Positions 43 to 8,418 of a DNA stretch of 36,364 nucleotides are shown piece after piece. Source of the DNA: Alphaproteobacteria bacterium. GTDB taxonomy: Bacteria > Pseudomonadota > Alphaproteobacteria > Thalassobaculales > Thalassobaculaceae. A model generated the notes under the pieces. The model was not told the origin of the DNA. It saw nothing but the letters and a program-made list of their open reading frames with translations, and searched no databases. Made by a program: the position numbers and the translations under genes. The DNA lies in assembly GCA_013203465.1 (NCBI GenBank), contig JABMNR010000133.1:1-36364 (forward strand), read 5' to 3'. Each line of letters begins with the position of its first letter. The first letter of the stretch is position 1.

Positions 43-780
43 ATGGAGAATCTCGGTTCAATGAGCCTCTACAATAGCGATCGACGGTATCGGCAACGGT
101 TCTGGGGTGGCTTGATCCGCCTCGTGGTGTTTGTCGGCCTGGTGGTGACGGCGGCGGTCGTGTCCTATCAGTACGGGATCGAGGATTTGGAAAGTCAGGT
201 GCGCGGTTATCAGCAGGAGGTTCACGGGCTCGAAAGTCGCCAAGGCCGACTGGAACAGGAAAACGCAAATCTGCTCGTGGAGGTGGAGCGGGCGAAGCTG
301 GCGGTCGAGGAGTGGGAACGCCGTTACACCGTGGACGTCCCGTCGGGTGACCGGCGCGCGATGCTTGATTTGCTGAGCGAGCGCTTGGAGGCGGGGATCG
401 ACCCCGAGCGCCTGGCTTTTTTGATCCAATCGGCCGAAAACCTGCGTGACTGCGAGCCGGTGGAGACCAAGCGATTCCTGATCAAGACCCCGATCTACGA
501 AGGCGCCAACACCTCGGTCTCCTTCGCCCGTGAAGCGGTTGCCGTTACCGGTACCGGGCAATCGGAGACCACGGCTGAAGGCCTGCCGCAGGCTTGGTAC
601 GATCCACGCATGCCGGTGACCATCACCCTGACCCGGATCGATGGCGAGACACGTGAGGTCACCGGGGTGTTGCCGCTGCAACAATCCATCGTGCACGAGG
701 GGGTTGAGCATCATTTCTTGCTGCGCCCCGGCGCGCGCGGCTTCGTGCAGGTGGCGGCCGAGCGCTGCGCCTATCCATGA
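43..780 (+). CDS. membrane-anchored coiled-coil protein, function unknown
   Basis: A 245-residue protein that I do not recognise as a named family. After a short basic N-terminus there is one strong membrane segment at about residues 22-42 (rich in V, L and G). A Glu/Gln/Leu-rich stretch predicted to form a coiled coil follows (about 47-90), then a C-terminal soluble domain of about 150 residues. This predicts a single-pass inner-membrane protein with its C-terminal domain in the periplasm. The ATG at 43 is chosen because GGAGG lies at 31-35, seven bases before it; an in-frame TTG at 28 sits upstream of that site, and ATG 61 is a possible shorter start. The stop codon at 778-780 is part of ATGA, the first unit of the tandem junction array leading to the MFS gene, so the two genes are probably translationally coupled. 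Confidence 0.8.
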   Translation: MENLGSMSLYNSDRRYRQRFWGGLIRLVVFVGLVVTAAVVSYQYGIEDLESQVRGYQQEVHGLESRQGRLEQENANLLVEVERAKLAVEEWERRYTVDVPSGDRRAMLDLLSERLEAGIDPERLAFLIQSAENLRDCEPVETKRFLIKTPIYEGANTSVSFAREAVAVTGTGQSETTAEGLPQAWYDPRMPVTITLTRIDGETREVTGVLPLQQSIVHEGVEHHFLLRPGARGFVQVAAERCAYP

Positions 781-873
781 AGGCCCGGTCATGAAAATCC
801 GGCCGTGAAAACCTGGCCATGAGTGTCTGGCCATGAATGTCTGGCTGTGAATGCTCGGGATGAGCCGGGGGGC
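777..873 (+). repeat. 14-nt tandem array of overlapping stop/start codons
   Basis: Seven degenerate units begin with ATGA or GTGA at 777, 791, 805, 819, 833, 847 and 860. The spacing is 14, 14, 14, 14, 14 and 13 bases. Typical units are ATGAAAATCCGGCC, ATGAGTGTCTGGCC and ATGAATGTCTGGCT. The first unit contains the stop of the coiled-coil gene. Each of the next starts opens a five-codon ORF whose TGA overlaps the next start by four bases (777-794, 791-808, 805-822, 819-836, 833-850). The GTG at 847 escapes this pattern because its unit is one base short, and so opens into the MFS transporter frame. The coordinates and frames are read directly; a role in translational coupling is an inference. 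Confidence 0.85.
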
Positions 874-2052
874 GGCGCTGGCGCGACCCTGGTCGAGCGT
901 GCCCATGGTCTGAGCCGCGCCCAGGTGGGCTGGAGCCTGGTGGCGCATTTCGCCAGCTCGCTGTCGATCGGCATCGCCGTCGGCGGCATGGTGCCGCTGA
1001 TCTCGCTGACGCTTGAGAGCCGCGATGTCGACTCCGTGCTAATCGGTGTGAACTCGGGGATGACGTCGCTGGGCGTGATCGCGGCCGCCCCTTGGGTGCC
1101 GACGATCATCCGGCGCCTGGGTGCCGCCGAGGGGATCGTGCTGGGGTTGATGCTGACCAGCGTGGCGGTATTGCTGCTGGCCTTCACCGAGAGTCTGCTG
1201 GTCTGGTTCTTCCTACGCTTCCTGATTGGCGTCGGCGTGGTCACCCAATGGGTGGTTAGCGAGACCTGGATGCAGGCGATCGTCTCCGAGCGCCGCCGCG
1301 GCCTGGTGATGTCCGGCTATGTCACCTCGATCGCCGCCGGTTTTGCTGTCGGGCCGGTTGTCCTGTCGATCGTCGGAACCGAGGGCCTGCTGCCGTTCGC
1401 GATCTTCGCGGCCATGATGGCGGCGACCGCGTTGCCGATGCTGCCGATCCGCCGTTGGGTGCCGGCCTTTGCCTTGGGTCAACGCGGCAGCGTTCGCCGG
1501 TTGCTGCGCGAGGCGCCAACCATCGCCACCGCCGCCTTGGCGGTTGGGTTGGTCGACTCGGCGTTCTTCACCTTCATCCCGCTGTATGGCGTGCGGATCG
1601 GTATGCCGACCGAGACGGCGGTGACCCTGTTGACGGTGGTGTTGGCCGGCAATGTGCTGTTGCAAATACCGCTCGGCTGGTTGGCCGACCAGGTGTCCCG
1701 CCGGATGTTGTTGGTGGTGTTGGCGGTGTTGTGCTGCGCCGGCCCGGGGTTGTCCGGCTGGCTGCTGACGATCGGGTCGATCTGGGTCTATCCGTCTTTG
1801 TTTGTCTGGGGCGGGGCGGCCTTCGGGATTTACACCGTGGCCGTCACCATGCTGGGAGAACGTTATCGCGGGGGTGAGCTGGCGGCGGCCAACGCGGCCT
1901 TCGTGATGACCTTCGAACTCGCCAACCTGCTCGGCCCGCCCGCCGCCGGCTCAGCGATGGAGGCGTGGCAACCGCATGGCCTCATGGTGTGGATGACGCT
2001 GATCGCCGTGATCTTCGCGGCGTTGGCGTTTGTGCGTGGTCTCAGGCGTTAG
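847..2052 (+). CDS. MFS transporter
   Basis: A major facilitator superfamily permease of about 401 residues with roughly 12 hydrophobic segments in two halves, and the usual short basic loop after the second and third helices (IIRRLGAAEG). It resembles the small YcaD-like or sugar/drug efflux MFS proteins, but the substrate cannot be told. No Shine-Dalgarno sequence precedes any candidate start. GTG 847 is preferred because it is the last start in the overlapping stop/start array; an in-frame GTG at 823 would add eight residues. The first helix begins near residue 30, so either start is compatible with the fold. The stop lies 13 bases from the end of the convergent lipoprotein gene, with no clear terminator between them. 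Expression probably depends on ribosomes arriving from the coiled-coil gene upstream. Confidence 0.88.
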   Translation: MNARDEPGGGAGATLVERAHGLSRAQVGWSLVAHFASSLSIGIAVGGMVPLISLTLESRDVDSVLIGVNSGMTSLGVIAAAPWVPTIIRRLGAAEGIVLGLMLTSVAVLLLAFTESLLVWFFLRFLIGVGVVTQWVVSETWMQAIVSERRRGLVMSGYVTSIAAGFAVGPVVLSIVGTEGLLPFAIFAAMMAATALPMLPIRRWVPAFALGQRGSVRRLLREAPTIATAALAVGLVDSAFFTFIPLYGVRIGMPTETAVTLLTVVLAGNVLLQIPLGWLADQVSRRMLLVVLAVLCCAGPGLSGWLLTIGSIWVYPSLFVWGGAAFGIYTVAVTMLGERYRGGELAAANAAFVMTFELANLLGPPAAGSAMEAWQPHGLMVWMTLIAVIFAALAFVRGLRR

Positions 2053-3327: not shown

Positions 3328-3467
3328 GAAAACCGCAACATGCTGCGTTCACCCGATGCAGGACATCCAGGTGATTGACCGCTCCGAACCGCACGGCCAC
3401 AGTCTGCCCCGCCATTTAGTTCGCGTCGACCCGTTGCAGTCGCCCCGTTACAGCTGAGGAGATCATC

Positions 3468-6876: not shown

Positions 6877-8331
6877 ATGAGCGGAACGACGGTAATCCGG
6901 AACGCCGATTGGGTGATCGGCTGGAACCCCTCGGGCGGGTGGGACGGCAGCGGCGGTCACACCTACCTCAAGGGCGCCGACGTGGTGTTCACCGGCGACA
7001 AACTGATTCACGTCGGCGCCGGCTGGGACGGCAAGGCGGATACCACGGTGGACGGGTCCGGCCGCATGGTCATGCCGGGGCTGGTCGACATCCACACCCA
7101 TCCCAGCTCGGAGCCGGGCAACAAGGGGCTGAACGAGGAGTTGGGCTCGCCCAAGCTCGGTCAATCCTCATTGTACGAGTACATGCCGGTGTTCCGCATG
7201 CTGCCGGAGGGTGCGGCGCACGCCACCCGTTACGCGATTTGGGAGATGCTCAAAAGCGGCGTGACCACCTATTGCGATCTGTCCGGCGCACGGGAGAACT
7301 GGGTCGAGGAGGTGGCGGCGACCGGCATTCGTGGCGTGCTGTGCCCGATGTACCGCTCGGCGGTCTGGACCACCAAGGACGGTCACTCCGTGGTCTACGA
7401 CTGGGACGAGGCGATGGGCGAGCGCGGCCTGGAGGGGGCGATCGCCATCGTCGAGGCGGCCGATCGCCACCCCTCGGGCCGGATGTCCGGCATGATGGGG
7501 CCGTCGCAGATCGACACCTGCACCCCCGAATTGATCCAGGCGAGCAAGCAAGAGGCCGACCGGCGCGGCATCACCATGCACATCCACGCCGCCCAAAGCG
7601 TGGTCGAGTTCAACGAGATGACCCGGCGCCACGGCATGACGCCAATCGAGTGGCTGGACGATCTCGGCGTGCTGGCCAAAGGCACCATCATCGCCCACGG
7701 CATCTTCCTGAACGACCATCCCTGGCTGCACTGGCCGCAGGCGAATGACTTCGAACGGCTGGTGGCGTCGGGGGCGGCGGTCGCCCACTGCCCGAACGTG
7801 TTCTGGCGGCGCGGCATCGCCCTGAACCATCTGGGCCGCTATGTGAGCGCCGGTATCCCGCTCGGTCTCGGCACCGATACCTTCCCGCACAACTTCCTGC
7901 ACGAGATCGAAATCGCCATGGTGGCCGGGCGGCTGATGGCCGGCACCTACACCCAGGCGACGACCGAGCAGACCTTCGCCGCCGCCACCTATCTCGGCGC
8001 ACGGGCAATCGGCCGCGACGACATCGGCCGACTGGCGCCGGGCTGCAAGGCCGATTTGGTGTTGGTCGACACCGATCATCCCTACATGCAGCCGTTGCGC
8101 GACCCGCTGCGCAGTCTGCTGTATTCGGCCGGCGACCGGGCGGTACGCGACGTCTACGTCGCCGGCGAGCGCATCGTGGCGAACGGCGAAGTGGCCCGCA
8201 TCGATATCGAGGCGACCTCGGCCAAGCTCAACGAGTTCCAACGGATCACCACCTCAAGCGTGCGGCAGCGCGACTGGGCCGCCCGCGACATCGACCGGCT
8301 GACGCCGATGTCGATCCCGGTAGCGAAATAA
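6877..8331 (+). CDS. TRZ/ATZ-type amidohydrolase
   Basis: A 484-residue member of the metal-dependent hydrolase group that includes cytosine and guanine deaminases and s-triazine hydrolases. Metal ligands are visible at His73 and His75 (DIHTHP), His237 (HIHAAQ), His274 (AHG) and Asp334 (GLGTD). In many deaminases of this group the third ligand motif reads HxxE with a catalytic Glu; here the corresponding residue is Gln240, so ordinary deaminase chemistry is uncertain. ATG 6877 is chosen because GAGG lies seven bases upstream and the longer frame (from 6661) is Arg-rich and unlike the family. The divergent region 6663-6876 shows no clear promoter. Its stop starts a short repeat relay into the hydantoinase gene. 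Confidence 0.88.
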   Translation: MSGTTVIRNADWVIGWNPSGGWDGSGGHTYLKGADVVFTGDKLIHVGAGWDGKADTTVDGSGRMVMPGLVDIHTHPSSEPGNKGLNEELGSPKLGQSSLYEYMPVFRMLPEGAAHATRYAIWEMLKSGVTTYCDLSGARENWVEEVAATGIRGVLCPMYRSAVWTTKDGHSVVYDWDEAMGERGLEGAIAIVEAADRHPSGRMSGMMGPSQIDTCTPELIQASKQEADRRGITMHIHAAQSVVEFNEMTRRHGMTPIEWLDDLGVLAKGTIIAHGIFLNDHPWLHWPQANDFERLVASGAAVAHCPNVFWRRGIALNHLGRYVSAGIPLGLGTDTFPHNFLHEIEIAMVAGRLMAGTYTQATTEQTFAAATYLGARAIGRDDIGRLAPGCKADLVLVDTDHPYMQPLRDPLRSLLYSAGDRAVRDVYVAGERIVANGEVARIDIEATSAKLNEFQRITTSSVRQRDWAARDIDRLTPMSIPVAK

Positions 8332-8354
8332 TGGTGACTGAATAGTGGTGGCTG
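8327..8354 (+). repeat. 14-nt tandem duplication at the junction of two amidohydrolase genes
   Basis: AATAATGGTGACTG (8327-8340) is followed directly by AATAGTGGTGGCTG (8341-8354), 12 of 14 bases identical. The first copy holds the stop of the TRZ-type gene (TAA 8329-8331) overlapping an ATG (8331). That ATG opens a four-codon ORF ending in TAG 8343-8345, which overlaps GTG 8345, which opens a 13-codon ORF ending in TGA 8384-8386. This in turn overlaps GTG 8383, in frame with the hydantoinase. Confidence 0.75.
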
Positions 8355-8418
8355 ATTTTTGTGGCGTGGGTGTGCCACACTCGTGACAGGATTTGGCGGC
8401 GTTGTACGGGAGACGGAC

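Follow-up and report, generated by a model that had tools for sequence, protein, structure and literature searches.

How is a transporter gene translated when a chain of further stop/start overlaps lies between its start codon and the stop of the preceding gene, and how does such a junction come about? The question is raised by the window, a stretch of 36,364 nt that makes up one complete 36-kb contig from the draft assembly of an alphaproteobacterium (G000, 238 contigs). Here an upstream gene, for which either ATG 43 or ATG 61 is a candidate start, is followed by an MFS transporter with a match to Pfam MFS_1 (Table 1). The upstream gene, initially annotated as a coiled-coil membrane protein, has no family match in Pfam or NCBIfam; its homologues occur in ten relatives and end in a similar C-terminus (AERCAYP-stop type). 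Relatives with names include Thalassobaculum fulvum, a Rhodospirillaceae bacterium, and strain BAL199.

Table 1. Positions of the two flanking genes and of the repeat units between them, in window coordinates.
Feature	Position	Strand	Remarks
Upstream gene	43..780	+	stop TGA 778-780, within array unit 1
Unit 1, ATGAAGGCCCGGTC	777..790	+	mini-ORF MKARS-stop; carries the stop of the upstream gene
Unit 2, ATGAAAATCCGGCC	791..804	+	mini-ORF MKIRP-stop
Unit 3, GTGAAAACCTGGCC	805..818	+	GTG start; mini-ORF VKTWP-stop
Unit 4, ATGAGTGTCTGGCC	819..832	+	mini-ORF MSVWP-stop; internal GTG 823 in the MFS frame
Unit 5, ATGAATGTCTGGCT	833..846	+	mini-ORF MNVWL-stop; its TGA 848-850 overlaps the MFS start
Unit 6, GTGAATGCTCGGG	847..859	+	13 nt; GTG is the inferred MFS start codon
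ATGA	860..863	+	out of the MFS frame; no other likeness to the units; left out of the unit count
MFS transporter	847..2052	+	401 aa; Pfam MFS_1 match

The array between the two genes consists of six units, each opening with RTGA (ATGA or GTGA), that follow each other at a spacing of exactly 14 nt. An initial annotation of this DNA had counted seven; the six units from 777 to 847 hold, while the seventh, at 860, has hardly more than ATGA and GG in common with them. The same annotation described the array as joining the stop of the upstream gene to the MFS start by way of five successive five-codon mini-ORFs, and this description proved accurate: the mini-ORFs open at the first five units, and every TGA overlaps the next start by 4 nt. 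It was also right that the unit at 847 is one base short and that its frame stays open, in frame with the MFS protein. Each junction within the array is therefore itself an ATGA/GTGA overlap, and the two genes are linked via the five mini-ORFs across a direct gap of 66 nt from the upstream stop to the MFS start. This geometry arises automatically, because duplication with a period of 3n+2 of a unit containing ATGA brings every TGA into frame with the start of the preceding unit.

Tandem Repeats Finder lists the array as two overlapping rows of 14 nt. It is the sole RTGA chain of at least three units in the window at periods of 5-39 nt on both strands (rows of 28 nt belong to the same array), and the three four-unit RTGA matches at period 14 in its own genome all overlap within it. 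A chance origin was ruled out by this detection and by the uniqueness of the array in the window and in its genome. A coding repeat was rejected as well, as the frame shifts with every unit and all frames run into TGA. Mean identity among the units is 0.70. None of the 19 base changes between units falls in the TGA columns (P 0.004 under random placement, a value that is somewhat flattering because the array was spotted through its ATGA), and position 1 has three changes, all between A and G, by which the start codon is retained. Columns 11-12 (GG) are as invariant as TGA, and the relay gives no reason for GG.

Two other short tandem repeats of 14 nt, with about two copies each, were found in the window at 8327-8355 and 3425-3453. 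One of them sits at the stop of a 556-codon ORF, and neither forms an RTGA chain of three. Elsewhere in the same genome, on the minus strand of G000:C83:3-91 (L057), a second ATGA array has a period of 17 (ATGACCCCGGCTCGCCC) with at least five identical units and is broken off at the contig end.

The MFS start was initially annotated as having no Shine-Dalgarno site, and indeed only -1.5 kcal/mol was found before 847. Energies across the array units range from -1.5 to -3.7 kcal/mol. Two picked ORF starts of the window reach -8.6 and -9.5 kcal/mol, and several further picked starts are as weak as 847 or weaker. Codons 850-922 in the MFS frame contain no ATG, GTG or TTG, and the next candidate, GTG 925, lies in a region that is conserved in relatives. 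The likeliest start of the transporter is GTG 847, with GTG 823, which is also in frame, as the alternative.

The gene pair is adjacent and co-directional in ten other genomes of the family (L002-L008, L012, L015 and L016); the sets searched hold no genome of the source's own genus. The MFS homologues adjoining the same upstream gene share 60-77% identity with the transporter of the window in L002-L008 and L012, and about 39-40% in L015 and L016. Read by eye, three relatives have a single overlap at this junction (ATGA in L003 and L004, GTGA in L012). For the remaining seven, the MFS start chosen by eye lies within about 35 nt past the stop and is followed by A, and all ten chosen starts read RTGA. 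A comparable array was found by eye in none of the ten relatives with the gene pair. The initial annotation had named unrelated sequence with a normal ribosome binding site in relatives as one outcome that would speak against a relay. The relatives do lack the array, but, as read by eye, the MFS gene begins in them at an RTGA overlap or at a closely spaced start, and a Shine-Dalgarno-like stretch precedes the start only in L005 and L006 among the ten.

Two of these junctions carry small elaborations. L008 shows a short in-frame repetition of 18 nt of the start region, and in L015 (G019) an ATGA overlap leads into a mini-ORF of eight codons whose end lies 3 nt ahead of the MFS ATG, which may amount to a relay of a single step. 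The MFS homologue of L012 (G022, on a contig that also holds L031) matches in two overlapping frames (query 21-213 and 210-401) and, judging from these matches, is either frameshifted or mis-assembled.

The expansion of an ATGA junction, which had been offered as the plainer of two ideas for this locus, is supported by the single overlap in L003, L004 and L012, by the lack of a comparable array in the ten relatives, and by arrays elsewhere, several of which have units that copy the first bases of the gene itself (e.g., L038). The simplest history would be that one stop/start overlap was multiplied in this lineage. Both ideas first offered, relay and expansion, agree with the data and are compatible with one another.

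With a probability of roughly 0.55, we read the array as a tandemly expanded -4 (ATGA) overlap that keeps termination-reinitiation coupling by hopping. Tandem duplication of a 14-nt unit would have extended a -4 nt stop/start overlap of co-directional neighbours, and, with 14 being 3n+2 and RTGA present in every unit, each copy would provide anew a start overlapping the stop of the preceding mini-ORF. A ribosome that terminates on the upstream gene at 778-780 would reinitiate at 777, read five codons and stop; repeating this unit by unit, it would have passed through five mini-ORFs on arriving at the MFS start at 847. Serial hopping would be the cheapest way for the transporter to stay coupled across 66 nt with a weak Shine-Dalgarno site. 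If each hop loses some ribosomes, more units would be expected to yield less transporter. We infer that both genes are co-transcribed and that ribosomes hop along the array, and further that the MFS gene is translated mostly by way of hopping and that RTGA is maintained in the units by selection.

The distance between the genes bears on this reading from both sides. For native E. coli pairs, one study reports that reinitiation loses 40-80% at +14 nt and nearly disappears at +38 nt (PMC10666635), while coupling across 50 nt or more is reported for other systems in the same study and in a review (PMC10666635, PMC12548453). Because of these longer couplings, hopping may be unnecessary, and direct initiation at 847 without it is possible. 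According to the former study, ribosome travel after termination is itself disputed between local overlap and long scanning (PMC10666635). Natural junctions with at least four serial ATGA overlaps, among them probable narH-narJ, oppB-oppC and sdhE-mfd, would provide a graded series in which the efficiency of single hops could be measured.

Similar arrays were searched with RTGA at exact spacing in at least four units, and the pattern read backwards served as the control. At period 14, six of 36 genomes of the family held eight arrays (17 matches vs 3 for the reversed pattern), and 46 of 385 alphaproteobacterial genomes in the class sample matched, against 24 of 385 for the reversed control, counted by eye. 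Periods 13, 16 and 17 matched in 23, 21 and 18 of the 385 class genomes, with 16, 16 and 7 in the reversed controls (by eye), respectively. Period 11 matched in one genome, and period 15 occurred in ten of the 36 family genomes, mostly as GTGA repeats or low-identity matches. RTGC, a control without the stop, matched at period 14 in three of the 36 family genomes, of which two were RTGA arrays read from the other strand and the third was a 7-nt repeat, a result that weakly fits a need for the stop. In a phylum sample, 26 of 180 genomes held matches, many of them 7-nt repeats. Outside the class, a long ORF opened at the last unit in two of the loci examined, at least one per matching genome: an enoyl-CoA hydratase (L278) and a protein of no family (L289). 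Unit sequences of the period-14 arrays vary between loci and genomes, so that one mobile repeat is unlikely and a local origin of each array is suggested.

Altogether 85 arrays were classed at period 14, 39 at period 13, 32 at period 16, and 24 at period 17. The 85 include three 7-nt or internally repeated arrays that were counted twice (L065, L074 and L143) and two read on both strands (L084 and L129). Some period-14 places in G284, G207, G399, G069 and G401, mostly contig-end or 7-nt repeats, were left out, as were a period-13 array on contig C62 of G207 and extra places in G284 and in G109 (period 17). The search at period 16 covered the class sample without the 31 family genomes outside it. 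With at least four RTGA units at 14 nt and a family-supported gene at the last, the window falls in a class with 29 further Pfam-supported cases.

Two species of one genus (G219 and G312) carry arrays before orthologous clpS genes (L062 and L064), whose proteins are 99% identical. Their inner units differ, each resembling the gene start of its own species (ATGAGC vs ATGAGT), which would be explained either by recurrent expansion at one place or by homogenisation of the units.

At the last unit, 37 of 85 arrays of period 14 open a frame of at least 100 codons, compared to 5 of 39, 2 of 32 and 5 of 24 at periods 13, 16 and 17, respectively. Over 78 period-14 arrays, however, the last-unit frame was open for 100 codons in 32 and the other two frames in 13 and 24. 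Raw ORF length thus overstates gene starts, because other frames are also often open in GC-rich DNA, and the proteins were therefore tested against Pfam. At period 14, 29 of 35 tested downstream ORFs match a family, 28 of them above the curated cut-off; with the MFS transporter of the window included, 30 of the 85 arrays have a Pfam-supported ORF at the last unit. Matches were fewer at period 13 (3 of 7 ORFs at the last and 3 of 8 at the penultimate unit) and at period 16 (2 of 5 and 1 of 8), which pooled amount to 5 of 71 arrays at the last unit and 9 of 71 when the penultimate unit is included. The excess at period 14 is significant on the wider count (30/85 vs 9/71, P = 0.0014) as well as on the last unit only (30/85 vs 5/71, P 0.00002). 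Without the period-13 and -16 ORFs of 60-99 codons, which had added one match in ten (L206), the wider count becomes 8/71 (P 0.0006). Some ORFs at period-13 arrays reach their domain rather late, as with a thymidylate kinase whose domain begins at residue 39, and the real start may lie downstream.

Period 17, with 3 of 5 tested ORFs matching, shows no excess of Pfam-supported starts over periods 13 and 16 (3/24 vs 9/71, P = 1), and ORF length alone, with penultimate units counted, does not separate 3n+2 from 3n+1 (37/100 vs 17/64, P = 0.18). The Pfam tests did not take in the last-unit ORFs of L045, L083 and L123 at period 14 (60-64 codons), those of L186, L193 and L197 at period 17, or the penultimate-unit ORF of L109 at period 13. 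The main tally excluded arrays with a unit identity below 0.55. Three arrays of identity 0.48-0.55 (L071, L061 and L126), close to the level of chance, keep RTGA and have a Pfam-supported gene at the last unit (UbiD, MarR and NtrC-type, respectively); they may be very old, or they may be coincidental. Loading at a Shine-Dalgarno site ahead of the first unit was ruled out, as first units are no stronger in this respect than later ones across the 37 arrays of period 14 that open an ORF at the last unit (P = 0.49).

Some arrays bridge two genes in the manner of the window. Besides it, twelve period-14 arrays have Pfam families on both flanks, with the stop in the first unit and the start in the last (L078, L079, L120, L122, L127, L129, L130, L137, L138, L147, L149 and L150; the downstream match of L079 is weak). 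Named from their domains, the pairs include the nitrate reductase beta and delta subunits (L122, probable narH-narJ), two oligopeptide-type permease subunits (L120, probable oppB-oppC), SdhE and probably Mfd (L130, probable sdhE-mfd), two ABC ATPases each in L138 and L149, MlaD and DUF2155 (L137), and a phosphotransferase-family kinase and RNase H (L129). At period 17, L174 bridges an IMS polymerase and a DNA polymerase III alpha type, and L178 a MarR/GNAT protein and EamA; one bridge each was found at period 13 (L164) and at period 16 (L234, which uses the penultimate unit).

Anchoring on both sides occurs in 15 of 109 arrays with a period of 3n+2 and in 2 of 71 with 3n+1 (P 0.017), where the window is counted on the homologues of its upstream gene, although this gene has no Pfam family. 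Without the window and L079 the figures are 13/108 vs 2/71 (P 0.03). Of the upstream frames, 12 of 16 tested match Pfam at period 14 (L039, L045, L080, L082, L123 and L152 were left out); 5 of 9 were tested at periods 13 and 16, of which 2 match, and 4 of 6 at period 17, of which 3 match.

These results were weighed against neutral expansion, which is a credible though less favoured explanation: the gene-start region would have expanded by replication slippage, ATG and the following A would recur only because the duplicated stretch happened to contain the start codon, the transporter would be translated from its own last start, and the relay would be a by-product. Viral contigs speak for it, in which start-region arrays occur at all periods tried (10, 11, 13, 14, 16, 17 and 20). 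Among the matches listed, ATGA arrays with a last-unit ORF of at least 60 codons make up 25 of 219 at periods 11, 14, 17 and 20, and 23 of 185 at periods 10, 13 and 16; 5 of the 219 are anchored at both ends vs 1 of the 185 at 3n+1 (P 0.23), and a viral preference for 3n+2 was thus not found among these matches. Neutral expansion is also in line with the units that copy the first bases of the gene in several arrays, and with the reversed-motif control, which itself peaks at period 14. It accounts less well for the TGA columns spared in the window, for the excess of Pfam-supported starts over periods 13 and 16, and for where the diverged arrays are found. Of the period-14 arrays whose units have diverged to an identity below 0.8 with RTGA intact, 16 of 22 have a 100-codon frame starting at the last unit, compared to 21 of 63 near-identical arrays (P = 0.002); at periods 13 and 16 taken together the corresponding figures are 1 of 13 and 6 of 58. 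This contrast was not made by the search, because RTGA was demanded in both groups, and it matches the expectation for selection on RTGA at gene starts.

Tandemly duplicated ORF starts of many different periods occur in viral contigs such as L391, L350, L589 and L795. Duplication of this kind seems to be general at gene starts, and viral contigs seem to tolerate upstream starts that are out of frame. A general frame filter for periods of 3n+2 was rejected: it is unsupported by period 17 in Alphaproteobacteria and by the viral contigs, though periods 13 and 16 are still poorer than 14 in Pfam-supported starts. Since 14 stands out, 17 does not and the viral contigs are neutral, we do not claim that a 3n+2 rule as such is selected.

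The initial annotation had suggested that the relay sets the transporter level by its copy number. In such a rheostat the number of units would determine the fraction of ribosomes reaching the MFS start, and slippage would alter it heritably, as at a contingency locus. We consider this unlikely for the window, whose units have diverged, which should lower slippage. Near-identical units elsewhere (e.g., L038, ahead of an ABC1-kinase gene, identity 1.00) suggest recent expansion and a copy number that may be labile, and the clpS arrays of the two congeneric species, with different units at an orthologous gene, point the same way. Copy-number tuning of the MFS level is accordingly possible but unsupported.

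A DNA or RNA element apart from translation (iterons, promoter, terminator or structured RNA) is very improbable: TGGCCA or CGGCCG palindromes at some unit boundaries and a folding somewhat better than shuffles (z -1.91 for 777-860 and -0.98 for 740-900) stand against a sigma-70-type search that gave no promoter-like or terminator-like site at 650-1050, an Rfam search with nothing at gathering level (best E 0.59; 14.9 bits vs a cut-off of 40), and other period-14 arrays that share RTGA and the period but as a rule not the palindrome. An RNA hairpin was rejected on the same folding, which is only weakly better than that of shuffles.

The termination-reinitiation relay first proposed for this locus is thus upheld in part, in that its geometry is real, its TGA columns are spared and 14-nt arrays at Pfam-supported starts recur in Alphaproteobacteria. 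The wider notion that Alphaproteobacteria repeatedly make coupled operon junctions into serial ribosome relays of 14-nt units, by which neighbours would stay translationally coupled over some 40-70 nt, with slippage of units heritably setting the stoichiometry of adjacent genes, we regard as doubtful. The arrays do show that a coupled junction can lengthen without losing its frame logic.

Known VNTR contingency loci usually act on promoters or reading frames, and the array resembles them in having tandem units placed where expression could be affected. The nearest precedent is the mycobacterial interspersed repetitive units (MIRUs), which, at tens of bp, are longer than the 14-nt unit of the window. 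Unit sequences of the period-14 arrays differ between loci, and the own genome has one such array by the array search. As a review describes them, MIRUs are short repeats located at a start codon, each with an ORF of its own that couples to the host gene at a spacing of -4 nt; in the view of the review this coupling limits the effect of the insertion, and the elements are described as apparently mobile and present in many mycobacteria (PMC12548453). The array shares with them a repeat ORF at -4 nt spacing to its neighbour, here in geometry alone, with mini-ORFs of five codons. Short ORFs that may deliver ribosomes have already been described in the same review (PMC12548453), and the axe-txe minigene is a very short ORF near a start that affects translation in cis (PMC8708949). 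That minigene has two codons and a stop 15 nt from the next start (PMC8708949), whereas the window has a serial overlapping chain. The four-nucleotide ATGA/GTGA overlap with termination-reinitiation coupling is treated in two studies (PMC6728339, PMC10666635) and in the review (PMC12548453). Each junction of the array is this motif, and three relatives have its single form at the same place; what differs is that the overlaps are serial, with five-codon mini-ORFs between them, and that the genes are 66 nt apart yet overlap-linked. A tandem series of such overlaps at gene starts, recurring at unrelated junctions, was not found in a limited search of the open-licence PMC literature. The parts (ATGA coupling, short ORFs and MIRU) are known.
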